A stretch of DNA of 64,000 bases, taken from contig NC_016023.1 in the NCBI RefSeq assembly GCF_000169195.2, forward strand, positions 124,001 to 188,000, given 5' to 3'. The translations under genes and the position numbers were made by a program. Shown here piece by piece: positions 11,278 to 30,180 of the stretch. Under the pieces are notes generated by a model. It was not told the origin of the DNA and searched no databases. It was given only the letters and a program-made list of their open reading frames with translations. The DNA comes from Heyndrickxia coagulans 36D1. GTDB taxonomy: Bacteria > Bacillota > Bacilli > Bacillales > Bacillaceae_C. The number at the start of each line of letters is the position of its first letter. Position 1 is the first letter of the stretch.

Positions 11278-12387
11278 TTATTCTTCTGCCTCTACTTCTT
11301 TAATCACCATCTTTGGCAGATCCCTGATAGTCTCACGTATTCGTTTCAATCGGGCTTTTCCCTGACCGGCAAAGCGAAGCAGATTGTAAGCGTATATGCC
11401 AAAATGCAGGGCAAGCTCATTCGTTTTTTGATTCCGGGAAGGCAGCTGTTTAAAACCAAGATCAAACCTAAATTCCCGTATCAACGATTTACAGACTTTC
11501 CGGTGTTCGTCGTAAAGCCTTGGCACAGCTTCCGGCGGAATATCGAGCGTTGTCATGTACACATCCGCTTCATACTCTGGAATCAAAAGGATTTGCCCGT
11601 TTTTATCAATGGTTGTTTCAATGAGTTTAAAAACATAATAGGCTGGTTTTTTTGCCCCGGCTGTCGTGTTGGTTTCCGCAACAGATCCAAAGTAAACGTT
11701 TTTTCCTTCCCGTTCGGATGAGCATGTGCCGTGTTTCCGTGCAGTTTCTACCCAAGTGCTAGCATCTGTCTGAAGTTTCATCACAAAATCGATGTTAAGG
11801 TCCAGCAGTTTTGCCGCAATTTCGGATCCTTCTTTTGCCTCGAGCCGCCAAAGGAAAGCACCTTCCGCCAATTGTTCAGCAGCACGGACCGACACGCTCG
11901 TTTCTTGTCCAAAGGAAAGGCAGTACCCTTCCTTTCCAATAAAAGCAAACGGCATTGCAACATCCACCGGTATAAAACTTTTGCCTTGTATGGTCACCGG
12001 GTTGATAGGTGCACCAGCCTTGCGAAGCAGGTGAAGAGACTCTTCAAGGATGATCTGTTTCCATTCTTCTGATAAAGCTGCCTCGTCCAGACGGTGCTCC
12101 AAGACAGCCGGCGAGGGAACCCTTTCCAATTTTAAAAAAGGACGGAAATCATAGTCGCTCCGTAACGGTTCAATTTCAGCAAACTTATTTTTTCCAAGGC
12201 AAAGCAGCCCGATATAGGCCTTCGCGATGTCCCCGTTTGAATAGCCGGGATTCCTTTTAATGGTTTCTGACTTGGCGCTATTCAGCCTTGATGCGAGATG
12301 AGTCTGGCTGATAAGGAACTCTACTATGCCCATTCCGAATTTATCCAATATCATTTCATTCGTTTGCTCAATCCGTAAATTTTTCAT
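11278..12387 (-). CDS. IS1380-family transposase-like protein, shortened and altered
   Basis: The 369-residue protein resembles IS1380-family DDE transposases at both ends: KNLRIEQTNEMI, SNGDIAKAYIGLLCLGK, and near the C terminus LPSRNQKTNELALHFGIYAY, then IRETIRDLP. Intact members are about 430-450 residues. The stretch after the first catalytic Asp (VDVAMPFAFIGKEGYCL) lacks some tens of residues, and the usual R(L/M)DSG carrying the second Asp reads RLEAKEG. Inverted terminal repeats are not evident on either side. The frame is open and has AGGTGAG before its ATG. It is either a degenerate transposase or a derived, non-transposing protein; the loss estimates rest on recalled family sequences. 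Confidence 0.7.
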   Translation of the reverse strand: MKNLRIEQTNEMILDKFGMGIVEFLISQTHLASRLNSAKSETIKRNPGYSNGDIAKAYIGLLCLGKNKFAEIEPLRSDYDFRPFLKLERVPSPAVLEHRLDEAALSEEWKQIILEESLHLLRKAGAPINPVTIQGKSFIPVDVAMPFAFIGKEGYCLSFGQETSVSVRAAEQLAEGAFLWRLEAKEGSEIAAKLLDLNIDFVMKLQTDASTWVETARKHGTCSSEREGKNVYFGSVAETNTTAGAKKPAYYVFKLIETTIDKNGQILLIPEYEADVYMTTLDIPPEAVPRLYDEHRKVCKSLIREFRFDLGFKQLPSRNQKTNELALHFGIYAYNLLRFAGQGKARLKRIRETIRDLPKMVIKEVEAEE

Positions 12388-12475: not shown

Positions 12476-13381
12476 ATGCTTTTCAAGGAAAGAAAAACTT
12501 CACTTGAATGTGCTCTTTTAAAGTCGCTGAACAACCGGATGAAACTCCATGAAAAAGACATCCAGTATCTCCGGAATTTGGAAAAAGGGGACGAAGGCGA
12601 GCGGTATTTTGACTCTTTAACAGCAGCACTTACATGTGATTGTTTTGTACTGAATGATTTGCGGCTTTCCTGCAACAATGCTACGTTCCAGATTGATGCC
12701 CTCATGATTACCGGCGAAACCATTTACCTGTTTGAAGTGAAAAATTATGAAGGCGATTTTTATTACGAGCGGGACAGAATTTTTACAAAAAATAAGTCTG
12801 AAATCAACAATGCGCTGCTTCAGGTCAAACGTTGCGAATCGCTTTTCCGGCAGTTGATTCTCTCGCTCGGTTTCAATATGCCGGTCTCGGCTTCCGTTGT
12901 TTTTGTAAACCCCGAATTTACCCTGTACCAGGCACCCCTGAGTGCGCCATTTATTTTCCCGAATCAGTTAAAACGGTATATAAAAGATTTGAATGCAATT
13001 TCTGCAAAGCTGAGCGGAAAGCATAGAAGGCTGGCAGAAAAGCTATCTTCGCTGCATATAGAAGAATCGCCTTTTCTTCATTTGCCGAAATATGAGTATG
13101 ATCAATTGCGGAAAGGCATTGTGTGCGACGCTTGTGGTTCTTTTTCCTGTGCGGTAAAAGGGCATGCAATGATTTGTGAGGATTGTGGACATGCTGAATC
13201 TGTTGAGGCCGCGGTCCTCCGCAGTGTCAGAGAATTTCGGATGTTGTTTCCAGAGCGGAAGATTACAACAAATGATATTTTTGACTGGTGCAGGATTGTG
13301 GAATCGAAAAAAAGGGTGAGCAGGATACTGGCAAAAAATTTCAATAAGTTCAGAGGTGGAAGATGGTCTTACTATGAGTAA
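12476..13381 (+). CDS. NERD-domain (nuclease-related) protein with zinc ribbon
   Basis: The 301-residue protein has the NERD pattern of a restriction-endonuclease-like fold: GDEGERYF near residue 38, QIDALMITGETIYLFEVKNY near residues 72-91 giving the D...E-x-K triad. The C-terminal part has CDACG and CEDCG pairs (about residues 217-240), a likely zinc ribbon. NERD proteins are thought to act on DNA; precise roles are mostly unknown. GAAAGGATG lies before the ATG. It converges with the pyr operon across a tandem hairpin array and is divergent from the IS1380-like gene. Accessory; a defence function is conceivable but unsupported. Confidence 0.8.
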   Translation: MLFKERKTSLECALLKSLNNRMKLHEKDIQYLRNLEKGDEGERYFDSLTAALTCDCFVLNDLRLSCNNATFQIDALMITGETIYLFEVKNYEGDFYYERDRIFTKNKSEINNALLQVKRCESLFRQLILSLGFNMPVSASVVFVNPEFTLYQAPLSAPFIFPNQLKRYIKDLNAISAKLSGKHRRLAEKLSSLHIEESPFLHLPKYEYDQLRKGIVCDACGSFSCAVKGHAMICEDCGHAESVEAAVLRSVREFRMLFPERKITTNDIFDWCRIVESKKRVSRILAKNFNKFRGGRWSYYE

Positions 13382-13480
13382 TTGATGATCACAAACTTAT
13401 GAATTAGAAATTCTACCGGGGAAAAGCATTTGGTATTTTGACACTTCAAAAAGACCAAATATGCTCAGTTCCCCGGTTAT

Positions 13481-14205
13481 TTTTGTCCTTTTGAACACTC
13501 CAAAAAGACATTTTGTTCCGGTCAATGGCTCCTTTTGTCCTTTTGGATGCTCCAAAAGAACAATTTGCTCCGGTCCACGGCTCCTTTTGTCCTTTTGACA
13601 GCTTCAAAAGGACATTTTGTTTCAGTTCACGGCTCCTTTTGTCCTTTTGGCAGCTTCAAAAGGACATTCCGAGCCCAGATACAGCTTGTTTTGTCCTTTT
13701 GACAGCTTCAAAAAGACATTTTGGACCCCGATGCAACGCGTTTTGTCCTTTTGACTGCTTCAAAAGGACATTTCGGGACCGGATGCAACGTGTTTTGTCC
13801 TTTTGGCAGCTTCAAAAGGACATTCCGAGCCCAGATACAGCTTGTTTTGTCCTTTTGACAGCTTCAAAAAGACACTTTGGGTCCAGTCGCGACTCCTTTT
13901 GTCCTTTTGGCAGCTTCAAAAGGACATTCCGAGCCCAGATACAGCTTGTTTTGTCCTTTTGACAGCTTCAAAAAGACATTTCGGGCCCAGATACAGCTTG
14001 TTTTGTCCTTTTGACTTTCAAAAGGACATTCCGAGCCCAGATGCAACGTGTTTTGTCCTTTTGGCAGCTTCAAAAAGACATTCCGAGCCCGGATGCAGGG
14101 TGTTTTGTCCTTTTGACAGCTTGAAAAAAACATTTCAGGCCTAGGTGCGGCTCCTTTTTGTCTTGAATACTCCAAAAAAAATTTGCTATGGTCCCGCGAT
14201 TTCAT
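13481..14205. repeat. Tandem array of about 14 hairpin-bearing 52-bp repeats
   Basis: The 900-base gap between the NERD gene and pyrE holds no credible gene. From 13481 a 52-bp unit starting TTTTGTCCTTTTG recurs at 13533, 13585, 13637, 13689, 13741, 13793, 13845, 13897, 13949, 14001 (this copy is 50 bp), 14051, 14103 and, degenerate, 14155. Partial copies flank it near 13430 and 14206. Each unit holds an inverted repeat, TGTCCTTTTGA and TCAAAAGGACA, around CAGCT, then a more variable 22-base linker. The hairpins lack a following T-run on either strand, so they are not ordinary terminators. Open frames across it are by-products of repetition. Confidence 0.95.
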
Positions 14206-14283
14206 TTGTCCTTTTAAATGCCTCTCTGAAACAACAGTAAGCTTACTTTTGCCATATTTTAATAGCAAACCAAAGTATCTTGT

Positions 14284-14918
14284 TCAGCCCTTTTTGGATT
14301 TCCCCCATTCCTCCGGTTCCCGCCGCCATTCCTCGAGTGTCGCCAAGTCTTCTTCCCGGATCAGCCCCCTTTCTACGCCAACCTGAAGCAGTGTGGAGTA
14401 ATTCGATAAGGAGTAAGCGGTGATGCCTTCTTTTGCAAAATTTGCCGCTCCGGCCGGAAGTTCATATGTAAAAATCGAGACAACGCCGAGCACTTCGCAG
14501 CCGGCTTCCCGTAATGCGCGGACAACGGTGAGCACGCTGCCGCCGGTTGAAATTAAATCTTCGACAACGACAACTTTTTGCCCGGTGGAAACCCGCCCTT
14601 CGATCTGGTTGCCCTTGCCGTGTGTTTTTGCACTCGAACGGACGTATACCATTGGCAAATTCATCAGGTCGCTGACAAAAGCGGCGTGGGCAATCCCGGC
14701 AGTTGCCGTGCCTGCCACCACTTCCGTTTCCGGGAAGTGTGCTTCGATCAGCTTTTTCAGTCCGATGGCGATTTCTTTCCGCAGGTTCGGATAGGACAAT
14801 GTAATGCGATTATCGCAGTAAATTGGCGATTTGATTCCGGATGACCATGTAAAAGGTTCACCGGGTTTTAAAAAAACAGCTTCAATGTCAAGCAATTGTC
14901 CGGCAATGTATTTTTCCA

Positions 14919-14919
<1 letters not shown>
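14284..14919 (-). CDS. pyrE: Orotate phosphoribosyltransferase
   Basis: The 211-residue enzyme joins orotate and PRPP to give OMP (EC 2.4.2.10). The PRPP loop [12 protein letters not shown] sits near residues 115-127, and [16 protein letters not shown] near residues 23-38 is the orotate-binding N-terminal stretch. The ATG at 14919 is chosen: it overlaps the pyrF stop by one base (TAATG) and GGGGG precedes it; an ATG five codons earlier would have no site. Last gene of the pyr operon. No T-rich terminator follows it; the tandem hairpin array begins within 80 bases. Confidence 0.95.
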
Positions 14920-17578
<2,659 letters not shown>

Positions 17579-24333: not shown

Positions 24334-24967
<634 letters not shown>

Positions 24968-24996
24968 GTTTTTAAAAGGCTTATGAAGTTATTTTT

Positions 24997-29933: not shown

Positions 29934-30180
29934 AAAAAAACCTTCCCATCCCCAAAATAGGGACGAGAAGGTTCCCGCGGTACCACCCTAGTAGGCATCC
30001 AATATGCCCGCTCGACATCCGTAACGTGGAAGGTCCCGCTTAACTCTACTGGCCTTTTCGGCGTTCAAGGCAAGAACTCAAGGGGGATGTTCAGGCTGCG
30101 CGCTTTGCCGGGCTCGCACTGTCCCCGGTTCGCTTGGAAAGCTTTCACAACCCTACTGCCCTGTCATCGTTTTTTCGTAT
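29934..30180 (-). promoter_or_regulatory. T-box riboswitch of ileS
   Basis: The 363 bases between divIVA and ileS hold a T-box leader. The conserved T-box GGGTGGTACCGCGGG lies at about 29974-29988, and the terminator with arms AACCTTC..CCC and GGG..GGGAAGGTT plus seven T is at 29934-29972. The stem I stretch GAACCGGGGACAGTGCGAGC is typical. The probable specifier codon is ATC (Ile) at 30086-30088 in GAACATCCCCCTTGAG. Uncharged tRNA-Ile would prevent termination. Confidence 0.93.

Follow-up and report, generated by a model that had tools for sequence, protein, structure and literature searches.

Tandem palindromes of 52 bp in Heyndrickxia coagulans 36D1 and their association with a family of NERD-domain genes

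Between two converging genes of Heyndrickxia coagulans (Bacillus coagulans) 36D1 lies an array of palindromes repeated every 52 bp, which raises the questions of what kind of element it is and whether a protein belongs with it. The window studied here is a stretch of 64,000 bp from the 36D1 genome, a single contig of 3,552,226 bp. An initial annotation of the window knew of no named element with this design; satellites of 52 nt are in print, although the accessible text of that report assigns them no function (PMC8161180).

The array and its relatives within the species

The array (13480..14204, plus strand) contains 14 head-to-tail units, in agreement with the roughly fourteen 52-bp copies first described; eleven units are 52 bp long, one is 53 bp, and two are 50 bp, and Tandem Repeats Finder gives a period of 52 with a top score of 657. 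A typical unit is a 27-bp palindrome of the form TGTC..GACA, TGTCCTTTTGA-N5-TCAAAAGGACA, its 11-bp arms separated by a 5-base centre, followed by a linker. The 11-bp inverted repeat of the initial annotation therefore stands, but the linker is 25 bp rather than 22, and the hairpins described as perfect are palindromic without being uniformly perfect, since several units carry one arm mismatch arising from changes in the right arm. At the left edge, an extended palindrome (CCGGGGAA..TTCCCCGG, 13416..13476) surrounds a degenerate unit; it is longer than the array units and related to them, and strain DSM 1 (G002) has a near copy. At the right edge is a half unit (TTTGTCCTTTTA, 14205..14216, plus strand), and DSM 1 has the same.

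The gene to the left encodes a 301-amino acid protein with a nuclease-related domain (NERD; 12476..13381, plus strand; Pfam PF08378, E 4.3e-17) and is the proposed partner of the array, which begins 98 bp beyond its end. From the right, pyrE (14284..14934, minus strand), a neighbour only, converges on the array, so that the placement between the 3' ends of the NERD and pyr genes is as first reported. Divergent to the NERD gene is an IS1380-like DDE gene (11278..12387, minus strand). Elsewhere in the window, five in-frame 54-bp repeats (16527-16797) give an N-terminal extension of 18-residue repeats to the ORF at 15619-16809, by eye a dihydroorotate dehydrogenase, and Rfam marks a PyrR binding site and a T-box leader on the minus strand (24893-24982 and 29956-30176).

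Several familiar identities can be set aside. The array is not a coding repeat, as 52 is not a multiple of three and the ORFs crossing it look like by-products. Intrinsic terminators, defined by a G+C-rich stem and a T run, number two against 1.9 expected from shuffles, consistent with the absence of terminator T-runs noted initially. The spacers are not unique, as linkers recur within and between arrays, which upholds the earlier judgement that this is not a CRISPR; the 25 Pfam families found most often in 116 array-flanking proteins include no Cas family. A plasmid or phage element is likewise not indicated, as the window array has no match in plasmids and the array pattern none in the viral_contigs set. 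Rfam assigns it no family at gathering score, and a relaxed scan of five loci returned two weak matches, both far below gathering.

The array is one of many in 36D1. Pairs of TGTCYT..ARGACA palindromes spaced 51-53 bp apart number 188 in the genome against none for the reversed pattern, and a strand-oriented pattern for one unit matches 127 times forward and 82 times in reverse, with none for its control. With two window units as the query, the period was found at 12 places, the window array included and two of them being halves of one split array; a second arm family and the single-unit pattern add at least 12 more. The arm families in 36D1 are TGTCCTTTTGA/TCAAAAGGACA, a second family TGTCCTTCATC/GATGAAGGACA that contributes many sites, a few copies of TCTAATTGG/CCAATTAGA, and TCCTTAACATAGA/TCTATGTTAAGGA, which has longer arms and likewise a period of 52 bp. 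Blocks of the first family are nested inside another family's array at 1299.7 and 320.7 kb and stand beside one at 2466.6 and 2594 kb. At 1299.7, 2466.6, and 2594 kb (G000:C1; L025, L027, L028) the family flanking the first-family blocks is TCCTTAACATAGA/TCTATGTTAAGGA.

Strains differ in their arrays. The array between NERD and pyrE has 7 units in DSM 1 and 14 in 36D1, with flanking matches 91-94% identical. The first two units and the last in 36D1 resemble those of DSM 1, so that the edges agree while the interior differs; the interior belongs to another subfamily, by eye that of four other 36D1 loci. Such a difference would be expected if arrays recombine with one another, and a nuclease may provoke such exchange. 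An array that in 36D1 is split by an insertion element (979.4-981.7 kb, L023; IS3-like by eye) is unbroken in DSM 1 (L044).

A NERD gene accompanies the arrays

The search of related genomes that was suggested with the initial annotation makes the finding larger than one locus. An array pattern made of two TGTCYT-N15-ARGACA palindromes separated by 24-26 bases is present in 33 of 299 genomes from the order, with 0 of 299 for the reversed control. When 84,980 species were scanned with it, at least 110 stretches matched, and the titles of those listed name Bacillota MAGs or genera that we take to be of Bacillaceae type.

The link between NERD gene and array is established by computation from both directions. 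Among 116 array-flanking proteins (from a random 148 of 253 flanking ORFs, then trimmed by hand, the DSM 1 NERD being among those dropped), NERD is the commonest Pfam family, with four proteins including the window's own. By phmmer, NERD homologues adjoin arrays in Neobacillus, Metabacillus, Ureibacillus, and Bacillus at loci chosen by DNA pattern alone. NERD homologues with E values of 1e-25 or better occur in 111 of these 299 genomes. The 111 include every one of the 33 array-positive genomes, and the 188 NERD-negative genomes contain no pattern match. The hypergeometric probability of this co-occurrence is 2e-16 with genomes taken as independent and 1.4e-9 by genus, both values being too small on account of kinship. 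G005 and G008 have arrays and are NERD-positive, and the same-genus genomes G003 and G004 have NERD homologues with 52-bp arrays bearing other arms. G034 (L277), although NERD-negative, retains an array of three units that the pattern missed and that is perhaps a relic.

Starting from the gene, at loci selected purely by NERD similarity, a tandem repeat of 51-53 bp is found within 1.4 kb downstream of NERD at 68 of 70 loci and upstream at 5 of 70. A repeat was accepted if, of all lags from 30 to 90, the best was 51-53 and reached 55% identity or more. The 70 loci are the 30 best matches together with 40 picked by hand from the listed matches, partly from down the score list and partly for several paralogues per genome; left out before the count were L197 and L199, which are parts of a single broken copy (0.55 at lag 52), L198, which had no match reaching the cut-off, and the fragment L200 (0.40). 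The two loci without a downstream repeat, L209 and L224, have one upstream instead. In a second set, of homologues at 39-57% identity, 22 of 22 have a period of 51-53 or double that, five of them being genes already counted, L272 and L276 possibly one gene twice, and L275 excluded for too little sequence. The L272/L276 pair, both in G011, was considered as evidence of transposition and set aside as a possible assembly overlap. As a control, 30 loci of other NERD-domain genes from the phylum were taken, of which ten were without downstream sequence and one (L317) was misframed; array-like repeats were found at 0 of 20. The second NERD of 36D1 also has no such repeats.

Other genes do not share this association. 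Within about 1.5 kb of the NERD loci, the only widely shared gene is NERD itself (93 of 93), and the search for another conserved neighbour as partner gave none above 5 of 93 loci. One neighbouring ORF is common to five NERD loci (L203, L204, L206, L219, L249) and resembles RlmH. The IS1380-like gene stands beside NERD in 36D1, DSM 1, and G003 (the window, L046, L197, L200), and its match to PF13701 is below the cut-off for that family; it is perhaps domesticated or decayed. Among the loci searched its homologues are confined to genomes of the genus Heyndrickxia, and it is not part of the general unit.

The NERD protein, the arms, and the period

The NERD domain covers residues 37-144 of the protein, and a zinc-ribbon-like motif of four cysteines (C217/C220/C234/C237) and a conserved C-terminal region follow. 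Across 68 homologues without internal stops, G41, E42, Q72, D74, K89, G93, Q116, C217, C234, C237, and W271 are invariant and C220 is nearly so; E42, D74, K89, and the four cysteines are each conserved at 99-100%. E87, a residue of the D..ExK core, does not vary among seven aligned proteins but reaches only 70-90% in the 68. There are weak matches to an RNA polymerase subunit in the PDB (residues 217-249, E 0.022) and to HEC-02B in PADLOC (E 2.9e-4). The partner is a candidate NERD/zinc-ribbon nuclease, putatively of the PD-(D/E)XK type.

The sequence of the arms varies with that of the protein. NERD identity and arm identity are correlated across 47 loci (Mantel r 0.523, with 0 of 5000 permutations as high), these being the loci of the 70 that passed a filter on palindrome quality, while the other 23 have a poor consensus palindrome or a broken gene. 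Mean arm identity rises from 0.32 at below 40% NERD identity to 0.88 at above 80%. Arms pair at 7.37 of 10 positions within a locus and 3.67 of 10 across loci; with the phase chosen to maximise pairing, the value is 6.16 of 10 against 4.54 for a unit-shuffled control (highest 6.33). Among 18 pairs of paralogues from the same genome, arm identity is 0.15-0.65. The NERDs of G309, G116, G181, and G317, from three families, form one clade (support 100/98) with common TGTCCGAAGT-type arms. Palindromes of TGTCCGAANT occur in nine of the 299 genomes, all NERD-positive and mostly at several places per genome; G309, G116, and G181 are among them, but G317 has a TGTCCGAAGT-type NERD array and no TGTCCGAANT match, its right arm being different. 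That array sequence tracks the relatives of NERD suggests that the protein reads the array. In another family of the class, a distant NERD homologue (L302, G554) has a 63-bp repeat with ATGTCCGAAG/CTTCGGACAT arms, which resemble the TGTCCGAAGT arms of the order. 36D1 itself has one NERD of the array-linked clade but several arm families, some without a cognate gene.

In 1224 units from 160 loci, with overlapping loci retained in part, unit spacing is 52 bp in 942, 51 bp in 56, and 53 bp in 19. A spacing of 52 was itself a selection criterion for many of the loci, and in L083-L192, picked by the 52-bp TGTCYT pattern, the period and the palindrome ends are present by construction. In the same units, position 5/23 of the palindrome is unusually variable (C-G 676, T-G 213, C-A 182, T-A 137), as if by frequent C to T changes on either strand, and this is partly an effect of the search pattern. 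Among distant NERD homologues (23-30% identity), 13 of 15 lie beside repeats of 21, 41-42, 63, 82-83, or 103 bp, although L304 scored 0.52 and L301 0.44, and L306 resembles low-complexity sequence. The 21-bp-based repeats are direct repeats with no evident hairpin or palindrome. With 52 included, the periods fall near 2, 4, 5, 6, 8, and 10 turns of 10.4 bp. On the NERD tree, in which long branches are unsure and from which L301 and several duplicates of a gene were omitted, the period labels need four changes, the minimum possible; the labels were assigned by hand, with 82-83 (L298) placed in the 41 group, 42, 82, and 103 (L303-L305, L308, L309) in the 21 group, and 51 and 53 in the 52 group except at L293/L294. 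One reading of these near-helical periods is that double-stranded DNA is recognised from a single face of the helix.

A proposed two-part unit, its rivals, and known systems

On balance, the NERD gene and the array probably form a two-part unit, in which the protein binds phased sites and its cutting or nicking drives their amplification and spread, a role that has been proposed for RAYTs with respect to REPINs. This explanation draws together the linkage, the co-occurrence, the co-variation of arms and protein, the conserved nuclease-type and cysteine residues, and the near-helical periods, which are all computed observations; we infer from them that the NERD protein binds the arms and nicks or cuts DNA. 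Downstream of the gene, each 52 bp (about five helical turns) presents two inverted half-sites, and other arrays lie in trans across the genome, for the most part at the 3' ends of genes. A symmetric dimer of the NERD protein is proposed to bind the arms on double-stranded DNA, so the arms would be complementary because one protein reads both, and not for RNA pairing. Nicking or cutting of the arrays would stimulate recombination, by which units may be amplified, exchanged, and dispersed, and the arrays would then be a satellite of the NERD gene, analogous but unrelated to the REPINs of RAYTs. Of the roles first listed (a BIME-like buffer, an RNA tail, a protein-binding array, or a minisatellite), the protein-binding array is the one favoured here, although no protein had been named, and the list as a whole is partly supported. 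A broader generalisation is plausible but more tentative: one family of NERD/zinc-ribbon nucleases may produce and maintain both the 52-nt and the 20-21-nt satellites of bacteria, with lock-and-key specificity between a given paralogue and the dispersed, helically phased sites that it writes and reads.

Several observations count against the two-part unit: the incomplete conservation of E87, the arm families of 36D1 that have no cognate gene, the missing TGTCCGAANT match in G317, the array retained by the NERD-negative G034, the excess of G.T over A.C in the total of sense-strand mismatches, the detection of the repeats in RNA-seq reads, and the 23 of 70 loci with a poor palindrome or a broken gene. 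Orientation is a further one. Between codirectional genes, arrays are oriented opposite to the genes in 40 cases, the same in 15, and ambiguously in 13, while in 54 of 68 NERD-linked arrays the pyrimidine-rich strand, judged by the linkers, coincides with the sense strand of NERD. NERD-linked and other arrays thus seem to differ in how they are oriented to the gene upstream.

The placement of arrays bears on the first of four rivals. By a simple ORF rule, both neighbours were called for 118 of 157 arrays, of which 39 lie between convergent genes, 68 between codirectional genes, and 11 between divergent genes, so the converging setting of the window array is real there but is not the rule. The excess of convergent over divergent placement (p 9e-5) and the median gap of 146 bp to gene 3' ends, against 287 bp to 5' ends, show a preference for 3' ends. 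If the NERD protein were a sequence-specific DNA binder that polymerised along the phased arrays, and so organised the nucleoid or insulated the ends of genes, its nuclease fold serving binding or repair and not spread, then this preference and the constant, near-helical periods would be expected, and a nucleoid protein has been proposed in general terms in the available part of PMC8161180. Such a structural role is nonetheless unlikely: the arrays are patchy in occurrence, vary in copy number between strains, and contain nested blocks, a picture of turnover rather than housekeeping, and the nuclease-type residues are conserved.

Type III toxin-antitoxin systems have a tandem-repeat RNA as antidote, upstream of an endoribonuclease toxin. 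A nuclease-like gene beside a tandem repeat could similarly be a guarding system, in which the nuclease attacks invader DNA or RNA and the arrays are decoys or an RNA antidote. The weak HEC-02B match and the RNA-seq detection of the repeats described in the accessible text of PMC8625621 agree with this. It is improbable, however, as the repeats are downstream of the gene, not upstream as in type III systems (68 against 5 of 70 loci), many arrays stand elsewhere without a NERD gene, and the 21-bp-based relatives have no evident hairpin. The array pattern has no match in the viral_contigs set, which neither helps nor excludes a guarding role.

A role at the level of RNA, with hairpins in 3' regions stabilising or processing transcripts and the protein acting on RNA, is very doubtful. 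The 3'-end preference and the reported transcription (PMC8625621, as far as its accessible text goes) would suit it, as would the total of sense-strand mismatches, in which G.T exceeds A.C (192 against 109) as RNA hairpins would predict; counted per array, however, the test is near even (29 G.T-rich, 23 A.C-rich, 16 equal). The fixed linker length and the near-helical periods make little sense for RNA, there is no Rfam family, and the direct-repeat relatives are without evident hairpins. Least probable are neutral satellites, kept palindromic by slippage and template switching with NERD merely repairing or tolerating such DNA: copy-number and unit differences between strains and the nested blocks fit, but neutrality predicts neither that arms should go with a NERD clade in more than one family nor that 188 NERD-negative genomes should be free of pattern matches (the G034 relic being missed by the pattern).

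The two-part unit can be compared with several known systems. CRISPR and TIGR arrays are tandem repeats beside a nuclease gene, and here too tandem repeats adjoin such a gene; the differences are that there are no unique spacers, linkers recur, arms vary by array, and many arrays are without the gene. SmdA of Staphylococcus aureus also has a NERD-type domain, but it is located in the membrane and several of the residues conserved in NERD are missing from it, and to the knowledge of its authors the role of NERD in bacteria has not been studied (PMC9040797, from the accessible text). REPINs and RAYTs come closer. According to the available text of PMC3116915, they are dispersed extragenic palindromes with one class beside each distinct enzyme gene, enzyme and repeat are proposed to co-evolve, and an enzyme's closest relatives are in other genomes. 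Here each enzyme is likewise flanked by its own class of palindrome, which is also dispersed in the cases of one arm type and of 36D1. RAYTs, however, are tyrosine (IS200-like) transposases, while the gene linked here is a NERD gene (PF08378), and the palindromes are regular 52-bp tandems rather than REP doublets.

The closest relatives are the 52-nt repeats of Subirana and Messeguer (2021; PMC8161180), described, in the accessible text, as constant in size and variable in sequence, with no function given. They were found in about 30% of the Bacillus species studied, and in B. coagulans they are partly conserved between strains; the authors note that one repeat can hold short sequences together with their reverse, no evidence for a Cas-like protein was found, and a nucleoid protein or small RNAs were suggested. 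RNA-seq reads of B. coagulans 2-6 contain the repeats (PMC8625621, accessible text). The arrays studied here share the size of 51-53, at least four tandem copies, non-coding location, variable sequence, several families per genome, and the inclusion of B. coagulans with variation between strains (36D1 and DSM 1). The initial annotation named a match to a known element, or copy-number drift without conservation, as telling against it, and this has come about in part: the class is known and copy number and interior units drift, but the class is conserved beside NERD across the order. The same report has 20-21-nt repeats, and repeats based on 21 bp follow some of the distant NERD homologues, a correspondence of size; these are direct repeats without an obvious palindrome, unlike the 52-bp units. 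The difference from the published satellites is the protein, since the accessible text of PMC8161180 gives no partner (the terms "palindrom", "hairpin", "nuclease", and "NERD" are absent from it) while NERD is linked here. Among the matches listed, the open-licence literature contained no link between NERD and tandem repeats, and the papers listed for a search with sequence strings included none on such repeats.

The 52-nt repeats have been a published puzzle, with a constant length, a sequence that is not constant, and no protein; now that a family with conserved nuclease-type residues is linked to them, a single gene is enough to put the puzzle to the test. Should the arm specificity be real, there are dozens of natural protein-site pairs for a domain hardly studied in bacteria, and a new route by which satellite DNA arises in bacteria. 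The repeat alone is a member of the published class and was already known; what is new, within the reach of the searches made here, is the system of NERD gene plus array, in which a NERD/zinc-ribbon protein is tied to repeats with arm specificity and near-helical phasing.
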